A DNA stretch of 47,730 bases, taken from assembly GCA_016869515.1 (NCBI GenBank), contig VGDZ01000018.1, forward strand, positions 1 through 47,730. Direction: 5' to 3'. The notes beneath the pieces are model-generated. The model saw nothing but the letters and a program-made list of their open reading frames with translations, had not been told where the DNA came from and did no database searches. This DNA comes from Alphaproteobacteria bacterium. Its GTDB lineage: Bacteria > Pseudomonadota > Alphaproteobacteria > VGDZ01. Shown piece after piece: positions 12,106 to 32,643 of this stretch (its first letter is position 1; each line of letters opens with the position of its first letter). A program made the position numbers and the translations under genes.

Positions 12106-14532
12106 ATGGACAGGCTGCCGGTCGAAGACGCCCTGCCCGCGCTGTTGGCGGCGCTGGAGAAGGGCGGCAATGCCGTGCTGACCGCGCCGCCCGGCGCCGG
12201 CAAGACCACGCTGGTGCCGCCGGCGCTGGCGGCGGCAGGCTGGGCGCGCCAGGGCAAGATCCTGGCGATCGAGCCCCGGCGGCTGGCGGCGCGGGCGGCG
12301 GCGCGGCGCATGGCGGCGCTGGCCGGCCAGCCGGTCGGGCGCGACATCGGCTATCGCGTGCGGCTGGATGCCAAGCCCGGCCGGCGGATCGAGGCGCTGA
12401 CGCCGGGGGTCTATCTGCGCCTGCTGCAGGAACGGCCCGACCTTGGTGGCGTCGCCGCCGTGCTGTTCGACGAAATCCACGAGCGCGCGCTGGAGATCGA
12501 TCTGGCGCTGGCGCTGACCCGCGAGGCGCAAGGCGCGCTGCGGCCCGATCTGCGGCTGGTGGCGATGTCGGCCACGCTCGATGCCGGGCCGATCGCGCGG
12601 CTTCTGGGCGATGCGCCGGTGGTCGGCAGCCAAGGCCGGTCCTATCCGGTGAGCGTGGCCTATCTCGAGCGCGATCCCGAGGATGCGGTGGCGGCGATGG
12701 CGCCGGCGGTGCGGCGGATGCTGCGCGAGCGCGCCGGCGACATCCTCGCCTTCCTGCCTGGCGGCGGCGAAATCCGCCGCGTCGCCCGGCAGTTGGAAGA
12801 CCTGGACGAGCTGGTGCTGCCGCTTTACGGCGATCTTCCCTTCGAGGACCAGGACCGCGCCATCAGCCCCGATCCCGGCGGCCGGCGCAAAGTCGTGCTG
12901 GCGACCGCCATCGCCGAGACCAGCCTGACCATCGAGGGCATCGGCACCGTGATCGACAGCGGGCTGGCGCGCGGCCCGCGTTACGATCCGCGCAGCGGGT
13001 TGACGCGGCTTGCGACCGGGCGGGTGTCGCTGGCCGCGGCCGAACAGCGCCGTGGCCGCGCCGGACGCCTTGGCCCAGGACATTGCCTGCGGCTGTGGAG
13101 CGAGCCCGGCCAGCGCCAACTGGCGCCCTTCACGCCGCCCGAAATCCTTTCGGCCGATTTGGCGCCGCTGGCGCTGGAATTGGCGGTGTGGGGCACCAAG
13201 GCCGAGAGCCTGCCCTGGCTGGACCCGCCGCCCGAAGCGGCGCTGCGCGAGGCCGAGGCGCTGCTGCGCGATCTCGGCGCCTTGGACGAGTCCGGTCGCG
13301 CCGGCGACATGGGACGGGCGATGGCCGCGCTCGGCACCCATCCGCGGCTGGCGCATACGATGCTGCGGGCGCGCGATCTCGGATTGGGCGCAAGCGCGGC
13401 CTGGTTGGCGGCCTTGATCGAGGAACGCGATCCGCTGCGCGCTCCGCCGGGCCAGCGCCTGGCCGATCTGCGGCTGCGCATCGAGATCCGCCACCGCCCG
13501 ATCGTCGAGGCCGCGCGCCAGCACCGCAAGCGGCTGGGCATCGGCGAGGACACGATCGAAGCGGATCGCCTGGGCCTGGTCGCGGCGCTGGCCTATCCCG
13601 ACCGCATCGCCCGCCGCCGACCGGGCGCGGCGCCGCGCTATCTGCTGGCCAACGGGCGCGGCGCCGCCCTGCCCGGCTACGATCCGCTCGGCCGCGAGGA
13701 GTTCCTGAGCGTGGTCGAATTGGATGGCGCCCTGCCCGAAAGCCGCATTTTCCTGGCGGCGCCGATCGACCGCGCCGAGATCGAATCCGAATTCGCCGCC
13801 CGCATCGTCGCGGCCGACAGCATCGCCTGGGATGCGCGCGAGGGCGCCATCCAAGCCCGCCGCGAACGGCGCCTGGGCGCGATCGTGCTGGAGGCGAGGG
13901 AGATCGCCGACATCCCGCCCGAGCGCCGCATCGCGCTTCAGGCCGATGCCATCCGCGCCCTGGGCCTGGACGTCCTGCCCTGGGGCGAAGCGGCCCGGGA
14001 TTTGCGGGCGCGGGTCGGATTCCTCCATCGCCTCGATCCCGCCTCCTGGCCCGATTGGTCCGATGACGCGCTGTTGGCGTCGCTCGAAGACTGGCTGGGT
14101 CCGGCGCTTTACGACAGCGCGCGGCGGGCGCACTGGGCCAAGTTCGATCTGGCGGCGGCGCTGCGGGCGCAATTGGACCGGCACCGGCAGGCCGCGCTCG
14201 AGCGCGAGGCGCCGACGCATCTCGCCGTGCCGTCGGGAAGGCGACACGCGGTCGATTACGCCGATCCGGCGGCGCCGGTGCTGGCGGTCAAGCTGCAGGA
14301 GATGTTCGGCGCCACCGCCTCGCCGCTCTTGGCATCAGGGCGCGTGGCGGTGGTGCTGCATTTGCTGTCGCCGGCCGGGCGGCCGTTGCAAGTCACGCGC
14401 GATTTGGCCGGGTTCTGGGCCGGCGCCTATGCCGAGGTGAAGAAGGACATGCGCGGCCGCTATCCCCGCCATCCCTGGCCCGACGATCCGCGCGCCGCCC
14501 CCGCCACCCACCGCGCCAAGCCGCGCGGCTAG
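12106..14532 (+). CDS. hrpB: ATP-dependent helicase HrpB
   Basis: An 808-residue DEAH-box helicase. Motifs in order: the Walker A motif TAPPGAGKTT (residues 26-35), IEPRRLAARAAARRMA, DEIH box (122-125), VAMSATLDAGPIA, ATAIAETSLTIEGI and EQRRGRAGRLGPG (motif VI). The HA2 and C-terminal HrpB regions follow, ending near YPRHPWPDDPRAAPATHR, which is the usual HrpB C-terminus. The length fits the family. It is an RNA helicase-type protein whose cellular substrate is poorly defined. It is divergent from the broken binding-protein gene (62 bases between starts). Its TAG lies at the edge of a repeated hairpin. Confidence 0.96.
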   Translation: MDRLPVEDALPALLAALEKGGNAVLTAPPGAGKTTLVPPALAAAGWARQGKILAIEPRRLAARAAARRMAALAGQPVGRDIGYRVRLDAKPGRRIEALTPGVYLRLLQERPDLGGVAAVLFDEIHERALEIDLALALTREAQGALRPDLRLVAMSATLDAGPIARLLGDAPVVGSQGRSYPVSVAYLERDPEDAVAAMAPAVRRMLRERAGDILAFLPGGGEIRRVARQLEDLDELVLPLYGDLPFEDQDRAISPDPGGRRKVVLATAIAETSLTIEGIGTVIDSGLARGPRYDPRSGLTRLATGRVSLAAAEQRRGRAGRLGPGHCLRLWSEPGQRQLAPFTPPEILSADLAPLALELAVWGTKAESLPWLDPPPEAALREAEALLRDLGALDESGRAGDMGRAMAALGTHPRLAHTMLRARDLGLGASAAWLAALIEERDPLRAPPGQRLADLRLRIEIRHRPIVEAARQHRKRLGIGEDTIEADRLGLVAALAYPDRIARRRPGAAPRYLLANGRGAALPGYDPLGREEFLSVVELDGALPESRIFLAAPIDRAEIESEFAARIVAADSIAWDAREGAIQARRERRLGAIVLEAREIADIPPERRIALQADAIRALGLDVLPWGEAARDLRARVGFLHRLDPASWPDWSDDALLASLEDWLGPALYDSARRAHWAKFDLAAALRAQLDRHRQAALEREAPTHLAVPSGRRHAVDYADPAAPVLAVKLQEMFGATASPLLASGRVAVVLHLLSPAGRPLQVTRDLAGFWAGAYAEVKKDMRGRYPRHPWPDDPRAAPATHRAKPRG

Positions 14533-14605
14533 ACCGCGATCGGTAGATGGGGAATCGCGGTCCAGGGCGAGATACCAAGGCATAACGCTCTCTAGGATTT
14601 GAAAG
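14531..14605 (+). repeat. Intergenic hairpin repeat after hrpB, short copy
   Basis: GACCGCGAT (14532-14540) pairs with ATCGCGGTC (14554-14562), a 9-bp stem with a 13-base loop. The flanks AGACCGCGATCGGT and TCGCGGTCCAG recur at 32430-32443 and 32484-32494. ATACCAAGG (14572-14580) follows, like the ends of the larger element at 32362-32643. CGCTCTCTAG-type sequence at 14586-14605 matches 17 of 20 bases at 40239-40258. There is no T-tract. Confidence 0.6.
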
Positions 14606-31344: not shown

Positions 31345-32357
31345 CCGCCAAGACCTATCGCCGCGTCGTCGTCGCCGCCCGCCCCTCGGGCGAGCCCAAG
31401 GAAAGCGATTTCCGCATCGAGACCCTGCCGATCCCCGAGCCCGGACCGAAAGAGGTGCTGGTGCGGGCGATCTATCTTTCGCTCGATCCCTATATGCGCG
31501 GCCGCTTGCGCGACGTGCCGTCCTATGCGCCCCCGGTCGGCATCGGCGAGGTCATGGTCGGCGGCGTGGTCGGCGAGGTGGTCAAGTCCTATCACCCGGC
31601 GTTCAAGGCCGGCGAGTTCGTCGAGGGCCGGATGGGTTGGCAGGAATACGCCGTCGTCGAGCCGTCCGAACTGCGCAAGGTCGATCCGGCGCTGGCGCCG
31701 ATCTCGACCGCCAACGGCGTCCTGGGCATGCCCGGGCTGACGGCCTATTTCGGCCTGTTCAGCGTGGCCGAGCCCAAGCCGGGCGAGACCGTTGCGATCT
31801 CGGCCGCTTCGGGCGCGGTCGGCCAAGTGGCGGGTCAGCTGGCCAAGATCATGGGTTGCCGGGCGGTGGGCATCGCCGGCGGCCAGGCCAAATGCGATTT
31901 CGTCCAGCGCGAACTCGGCTTCGATGCCTGCGTCGACTACAAGGCGGGCGATCTGGATGCGGCCTTGCGCGCCGCCTGCCCGGCCGGCATCGACGTCTAC
32001 TTCGAGAACGTCGGCGGTCCGGTCTCGGATGCGGTGTTCAGGCAACTCAACATGTTCGCCCGCATCGCCGCCTGCGGCTCGGTCTCGCAGGCCAACAACG
32101 AGACCCCGGCCCAGGGGCCGCGGCTGCTGGGCCTGTTCACCGGTCGCAGGGTGCGGCTGCAGGGCTTCATCGTCTCGGACTTCCGCGATCACAATCCGGC
32201 GGCGCTGCGCCGACTCGGTCAGTGGGTCAAGTCGGGCCGCATCAAGTATCGCGAAGACATCGTCGACGGCATCGAGCGCGCGCCGGCGGCCTTCATCGGC
32301 CTGCTGCGGGGCGAGAACTTCGGCAAGCTGCAGGTCCGCCTCGGTCCCGAGGCCTGA
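31341..32357 (+). CDS. NADP-dependent oxidoreductase, zinc-independent MDR type
   Basis: A 338-residue enzyme of the leukotriene-B4 dehydrogenase/CurA-like MDR group, reducing alkenals, enones or curcumin-like substrates with NADPH. Evidence: YLSLDPYMRGRL near the N-terminus, MPGLTAYFGLFSVAEPKPGETVAISAASGAVGQVAGQLAKIMG (nucleotide fold), YFENVGGPVSD and RLQGFIVSDF. No zinc-ligand cysteines are present. It overlaps the MBL lipoprotein by four bases. Downstream lies a complex hairpin element. Confidence 0.92.
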   Translation: MTAKTYRRVVVAARPSGEPKESDFRIETLPIPEPGPKEVLVRAIYLSLDPYMRGRLRDVPSYAPPVGIGEVMVGGVVGEVVKSYHPAFKAGEFVEGRMGWQEYAVVEPSELRKVDPALAPISTANGVLGMPGLTAYFGLFSVAEPKPGETVAISAASGAVGQVAGQLAKIMGCRAVGIAGGQAKCDFVQRELGFDACVDYKAGDLDAALRAACPAGIDVYFENVGGPVSDAVFRQLNMFARIAACGSVSQANNETPAQGPRLLGLFTGRRVRLQGFIVSDFRDHNPAALRRLGQWVKSGRIKYREDIVDGIERAPAAFIGLLRGENFGKLQVRLGPEA

Positions 32358-32361
32358 TCCC

Positions 32362-32643
32362 TTATACCAGTCCGCGTTGACCGTGACCGGTCAACGCGCC
32401 CTCAGGCGCCGGGCGGGCGCATCCGCGCCAGACCGCGATCGGTTTGCATGGAATTGCAGACGCTATTCCATGCAAACCGTAAGTCGCGGTCCAGAGCAGG
32501 CTACGAGGGCAAGATTCACGTTTGGTCTTGAACCGCCGGTTCAAGACCAAACGATCTTGCCCTTGGCTTACGCGCCGGAAGGCGCGCGGCCTCAATGGCC
32601 GTTCCAAGCTGCGACGAGTCACGCTCATCGCAGCTTGGTATTA
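32362..32643. repeat. 282-bp intergenic hairpin element with related inverted ends
   Basis: The ends are TTATACCAG (32362, plus) and TAATACCAA (32643, minus); over 36 ungapped bases they match at 25. Inside are a 10-bp hairpin (32374-32397), a long hairpin CGGTTTGCATGGAAT/ATTCCATGCAAACCG with an outer GACCGCGA/TCGCGGTC (32431-32491), another GTTTGGTCTTGAAC/GTTCAAGACCAAAC with an outer GGGCAAGAT/ATCTTGCCC (32507-32562), and CCAAGCTGCGA/TCGCAGCTTGG (32604-32638). No coding frame. The right end supplies the bolA TAA stop. A shorter relative is at 14531-14605. Confidence 0.75.

Follow-up and report, generated by a model that had tools for sequence, protein, structure and literature searches.

A hairpin-rich intergenic block of an alphaproteobacterium as a likely nested pair of MITE-like palindromic repeats, one of them placed on TAG stop codons

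The Correia, RUP/BOX and QMITE2 MITEs are shorter than 500 bp, contain no ORF, show inverted ends and strong stem-loops, and occur in tens to hundreds of intergenic copies, features that are all shared by the repeats here presented. According to PMC3049150, and also to PMC10969869, the pneumococcal BOX, RUP and SPRITE elements insert into one another, while QMITE2 is described in PMC5896051 as extending an ORF and not as rebuilding its stop. On the contrary, the present repeats are not AT-rich, no partner IS was found for them among the transposase families searched, their stems covary across genera, and their copies occupy the stop codon itself.

The IS1031, IS427 and IS5 groups, together with IS630, use targets resembling 3-bp TNA and TA/YTAR, and Caulobacter CIR repeats are associated with CcrM. 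IS5- and IS630-family MITEs offer target sites similar to those described below, but DDE_Tnp_1 and DDE_3 are absent from the genome under study; GANTC sites in the hairpins of one of our repeats are reminiscent of the CcrM-associated CIR. In PMC10969869 CIR are reported as strictly intergenic, and PMC2573895 presents the rhizobial RIMEs, Sm-repeats and AB/C palindromes as intergenic repeats of alphaproteobacteria whose sequence and secondary structure are conserved. A kinship in kind to RIMEs and CIR is likely, as judged by comparing descriptions only; a plasmid search with a related element, belonging to the RIME/Sm-repeat/CIR comparison, gave no match. REP/REPIN elements, whose palindromes show compensatory changes (PMC2817692), share with our inner family this trait, the inverted palindrome pair and the high copy number, although the inner family has neither RAYT nor the GT(A/G)G head and its hairpins are much longer. 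Among open-licence papers, a weak source of evidence on this point, none was found that describes these elements or a MITE restoring a stop codon.

The locus occupies positions 32362-32643 of the window, that is, of the whole 47,730-nucleotide stretch analysed, and comprises an element plus both copies of a TTA repeat. It is flanked by a convergent pair, as the first-pass annotation had stated: an oxidoreductase (PF16884/PF00107) ending at 32357 on the left, and a minus-strand BolA (PF01722) on the right, whose stop TAA is indeed formed by the right-hand TTA (32641-32643). The codon-usage gene caller placed no gene within the stretch, and the ORFs present are chance frames (e.g., 32362-32628 on the minus strand), in agreement with the earlier statement that it lacks a coding frame. 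The gap-free match of the two ends as inverted copies at 25 of 36 positions was also reproduced, at least 25 matches being reached in none of 20,000 single-base shuffles and in one among 6,779 segments of 282 bp sampled stepwise along the window. Four hairpins were found, as described before, with arms of 11, 18, 17 and 15 bp, three of them (and not two) thus exceeding 13 bp. When folded as RNA the stretch reaches -177.1 kcal/mol (z -14.3; 0/200 shuffles equal or better), and each of its hairpins folds strongly also as single-stranded DNA.

Blastn of the stretch against its own genome returned 109 matches with two patterns, either 1-68 and 198-282 side by side or only 69-202, as is characteristic of a repeat that has inserted into another. 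The search for many genomic copies that the annotation had suggested as a check was therefore positive, and its MITE-like repeat family between convergent genes was right; what it took for a single element with a variable middle are actually two families, one nested in the other, with the following features.

32362..32364, no strand: TTA, the left one of two direct 3-bp repeats, a putative target-site duplication of the outer element
32365..32640, plus strand: outer element, interrupted, 276 bp here versus 144 bp in empty reference copies, with TACCAG...TTGGTA ends
32373..32398, no strand: hairpin with 11-bp arms at the left end of the outer element
32399..32429, plus strand: 5' portion of the conserved core of the outer element, consisting of CCCTCAGGCGCCGGGCG and hairpin 1 (GGGCGC-ATCC-GCGCC), from class-wide model R2
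about 32430..32561, plus strand: inner element, adding 132 bp net, with its junction placed within 1-2 bases (model R1 span 32428-32565)
32431..32491, no strand: inner hairpin A, with basal stem GACCGCGAT, a 3-nt bulge on its 3' side and a variable apical stem
32506..32563, no strand: inner hairpin B, inverted relative of hairpin A, with basal stem AGGGCAAGAT, the 3-nt bulge TCA on its 5' side and a variable apical stem
32562..32640, plus strand: right part of the outer element, with CTTGGC, hairpin 2 (32571-32586), hairpin 3 (32588-32600) and the right terminal hairpin (32604-32638)
32641..32643, no strand: TTA, right copy, on the minus strand the bolA stop TAA
14529..14593, plus strand: decayed second copy of the inner family, 65 bp, whose CTAG at 14529-14532 holds the stop of hrpB (12106-14532, plus strand)

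The outer family is present in its genome in about a dozen full copies. Twelve copies lacking the insert of the window were aligned (L226:41-183 and L223, with damaged left ends, among them), giving a reference empty length of 144 bp that the copy of the window exceeds by exactly 132 bp. As far as sequences go, this comparison of filled with empty copies establishes that an inner element went into an outer one. Inner-family inserts interrupt outer copies at the base of hairpin 1 (the window, C39, C54 and C78) and at two other sites, outer position 45 (C51, C54, C78 and C155) and the hairpin 2 loop. The last case is C30, with an extra B-type hairpin in place of the left half. The position-45 insert of C54 misses one hairpin, apparently lost between short direct repeats, and in C7 an inner element is joined to the outer right half only. 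Neither nested site 68 nor 45 has a visible TA duplication at its joints, and neither has CTAG as its target. The stretch probably consists of two MITE-like palindromic repeats, one nested in the other, which are mobile, non-autonomous and protein-free.

Regarding the outer element, its consensus ends are TACCAR...TTGGTA, and identical 3-bp flanks (TTA, TAA or TCA) were found in 6 of 18 two-ended copies and not in the other 12, where 1/64 is expected (p 2e-7); nine copies have TNA on both sides, with an agreeing middle base in six (p 0.01). The core layout is CCCTC-(AGGC)-GCCGGGCG-[hairpin]-CTTGGC-[hairpin]. Scanning 385 genomes of the class with the covariance model revealed this core in 32, with at most about 13 candidates scored per genome, so that copy numbers are minima, and in several positive genomes left and right hairpins of the same layout flank it. 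Within 22 distinct sequences, taken from 67 matches (alignment A6), 95.1% of stem cells pair, and double-changed cells amount to 48 versus 16.9 in shuffled and 6-14 in slid controls. Carriage by phages or plasmids was considered and rejected: the phage search gave no match, and plasmid matches, confined to the outer core, came from Niveispirillum and Tistrella, with one coding match from Azospirillum. On the plasmids of Niveispirillum cyanobacteriorum and Tistrella mobilis the core is intergenic where annotated, and in Tistrella it is in tandem.

The inner element, of about 133 bp, consists of hairpin A, a 15-nt spacer and hairpin B. In both hairpins the basal stem is conserved, the apical stem varies and a 3-nt bulge is present; hairpin B read backwards has the layout of hairpin A (GATCG...CG-TGA-ATC). 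A family model built from 58 copies matched all 150 candidates scored in its own genome, the weakest with E 4e-7, which means at least 150 copies, and the 97-99% identity of many of them to the consensus suggests a fairly recent spread. The preferred target is YTAR, mostly CTAG. Among the 50 of 58 rows with parsed termini, C-TA-[G...C]-TA-G is the commonest arrangement (21/50), and TA stands on both sides in 30/50, which may reflect either a TA duplicated by the inner element or a TA carried by it. GANTC motifs (GATTC/GAATC) occur repeatedly in the consensus, both at the bulge and within hairpin A.

Across the class, the covariance model detected the inner family in 16 of 385 genomes, its own included, with ends CTAGAGC.../...GCTCTAG or close to these in the others; it did better than blastn of the consensus, which gave a single weak match in 95 relatives. 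Only 4 genomes were positive for both families, indicating that inner and outer elements are separate families. All relatives drawn belong to the same class and none to the same order, so that an orthologous empty site is not visible among them; the best protein relatives come from an alphaproteobacterial MAG, Reyranella and Ferrovibrio (67-72%). Double-changed cells of the inner stems number 119 within the genome versus 21.2 in shuffled controls, and 208 across genera versus 54.3 in shuffled and 21-35 in slid controls (alignment A5 comprises 21 sequences).

The position of inner copies relative to genes was surveyed on 102 rows, namely those left of the roughly 106 with scores of 84 bits or more once four duplicates had been dropped (rows below 84 bits are mostly reverse-strand self-matches), with gene ends taken from a codon-usage caller trained on 24 ORFs of the window; in the first context run (A1), 9/58 rows at contig or locus edges were set aside. 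At these copies 134 gene 3' ends face the element: 61 have their stop exactly at its terminal TAG, and another 10 fall at other places within the first 60 nt. Outside the element lie 26 ends at no more than 20 nt, 24 at distances of 21-200 nt and 12 farther away, and 1 reads 87 nt into the element. At 47 copies one gene or more stops on the element, and at 14 both neighbours do so, while in 215 kb of the same genome 18/86 background CTAG sites lie at a stop and none is common to two genes (Fisher p 4e-4 and 1e-4, respectively); when CTAG inside genes is excluded, the stop excess becomes modest (47/102 versus 18/64, p 0.02). The 14 double-ending copies would be expected if tail-to-tail genes had once shared one CTAG. 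Neighbours are convergent at 47, co-directional at 37 and divergent at 10 of 94 inner copies, the corresponding numbers in the window being 9, 15 and 9. In a sample of 10 proteins ending in this way, including FlbT, LigT and a periplasmic binding protein, the last domain is complete in most, so that inner copies sit exactly on TAG stops many times and, in this sample, on natural gene ends. HrpB of the window matches TIGR01970 to its last residue; with its stop in the decayed inner copy at 14529-14593, this full-length gene repeats the stop-codon rule independently.

One in three insertions into coding DNA would bring a TAG into frame, and an element that merely lands in genes and truncates them would in this way also come to lie on stops. 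However, exact stops make up 61 of the 71 within the first 60 nt, far from one third (p 7e-20), and in other genomes a coding-like frame is closed at 22/57 TAG ends versus 1/114 in the two other frames (37 elements, namely 15 of 18 non-window loci, the three weakest being omitted, plus 22 fetched ones, under a stricter coding rule than in an earlier run). Considering also that HrpB and most sampled proteins are complete, and that at convergent pairs the far side is the tail of another gene and not the remainder of the first, such chance truncation is scarcely credible. Placement at 3' ends and between convergent genes (47/94), together with compensatory changes across genera in both families, would equally be expected from a structured RNA or 3'-UTR element (a bidirectional transcript end, an RNase site or an sRNA) selected as RNA and only secondarily dispersed. 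Against it, neither the stretch nor eight loci gave an Rfam family at its gathering threshold (sub-threshold chance matches are mostly to eukaryotic microRNA families), wobble is rare (G-T versus A-C cells 55/41, 25/11 and 7/3 in three alignments), and at least 150 dispersed copies with nesting are hard to explain without mobility. The rare wobble hints weakly at a role of the structure as DNA or on both strands; an intrinsic terminator was also rejected, a terminator-like T run being absent. Conservation as an RNA gene with compensatory changes across species had been named in the first-pass annotation as what would refute a repeat family: the changes are there, but the high copy number and the nested insertion do not fit an ordinary RNA gene, and we regard the RNA reading as rather improbable.

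Less remote, albeit still unlikely, is that the stem changes arise by template switching (quasi-palindrome correction) during replication and not by structural selection, the repeat being mobile all the same. The stems are near-perfectly Watson-Crick (2,719/2,888 cells) and whole apical stems have been replaced coherently (e.g., the TTTGCATGG and TTCATAGGG types), as that process would produce; correction would nevertheless erase the 3-nt bulge, which is kept, with its position, in most copies and lost or doubled only in a few (L148, L178 and L199). Paired related inverted hairpins with a 3-nt bulge in each, precise nested joints without obvious duplication, and strong folding as single-stranded DNA also recall a REPIN/BIME, that is, inverted REP-like hairpins moved through single-stranded DNA by a RAYT (Y1) tyrosine transposase, and a paired-REP, REPIN-like nature had been suggested before. 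However, Y1_Tnp (PF01797), as well as DDE_Tnp_1 (PF01609) and DDE_3 (PF13358), the only three transposase families searched, are absent from the 97.1% complete draft genome, which led to the rejection of IS200/RAYT, IS4/IS5 and IS630 partners there. Among the 385 genomes, Y1_Tnp occurs in 1/16 inner-positive versus 72/369 other genomes and in 8/32 outer-positive versus 65/353 others, with no association with either family. Furthermore, inner ends show YTAG before hairpins of about 60 nt each, without the GT(A/G)G head (as given in PMC2817692). REPIN/RAYT membership is accordingly not supported, and we consider this origin very improbable.

MITE-like behaviour of the nested pair is, on the contrary, supported. 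Both elements are short, without coding frame and in many dispersed copies, and have terminal inverted repeats, as the outer ends or as the related inverted hairpins of the inner element; flanks suggestive of target-site duplication are identical in part of the outer copies (6/18), while for the inner element TA on both sides (30/50) goes along with none clear at the nested sites. Since a related autonomous IS was not found among the families searched (PF01609 and PF13358 being absent), the elements are called MITE-like and not assigned to an IS family. Considering the spread, which seems fairly recent, the enzyme may be lost, may lie outside the assembly or may be of a family beyond those searched.

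The data support a 144-bp hairpin outer element that would have inserted at TTA between the convergent genes, leaving a 3-bp duplication, with a two-inverted-hairpin inner element inserting at some time into an outer copy. The inner element would insert at YTAR, mostly CTAG, and, its first base being G and its last C, a TAG stop would be re-formed at either end; it could therefore sit on gene 3' ends, even between tail-to-tail genes, without shortening them, which is the insertion history we infer for its stop-codon copies. Movement would depend on a trans-acting enzyme, and in the simplest view of the compensatory changes this enzyme, or a host protein, would recognise the folded hairpin. As a broader and tentative proposal, possible rather than probable, the inner family may be a dispersed alphaproteobacterial two-hairpin mobile family adapted to stop codons: it would recognise the CTAG palindrome where this remains, mainly outside coding DNA and including the CTAG common to overlapping TAG stops of tail-to-tail genes, its terminal G and C would restore both TAGs, and the enzyme recognising its folded hairpins would belong neither to the RAYTs nor to the IS4/IS5 or IS630 transposases.

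A puzzling hairpin block can in this way be explained as a MITE inside a MITE, and is tied to two structured repeat families found across many alphaproteobacterial families and without Rfam entry. The stop-codon rule (terminal G and C plus a TA-centred target giving TAG) would be a simple way of being harmless at gene ends, and makes it possible to predict, among intergenic hairpins, those that are insertions and, among gene 3' ends, those made by an element. This should be of use for gene annotation and for sRNA screens, such repeats being a known source of sRNA candidates according to PMC2573895.

Some minor observations were also recorded. In about 215 kb of the genome CTAG is scarce (86 sites outside elements), and TAG is a common stop (95/249 called stops, those at elements included). 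At L147 (G000:C80:11500-13700) three inner copies in the same orientation lie within about 550 bp (C80:12292-12843), and short coding-like stretches between them end in the TAG of the next copy; this triple may be a gene in pieces or a recombination product. At L192 (G000:C110:4593-4630) the right hairpin of the outer element stands alone as an almost perfect palindrome (TGCCAAGCTGCGATGAG...CTCATCGCAGCTTGGCA), the rest of the element being absent. In other alphaproteobacteria the outer core appears in tandem with periods of roughly 60-115 bp (L285, L290, L291, L248 and L249), these tandems being often preceded by a T run, and at L299 the core lies directly behind a tRNA-like CCA end.
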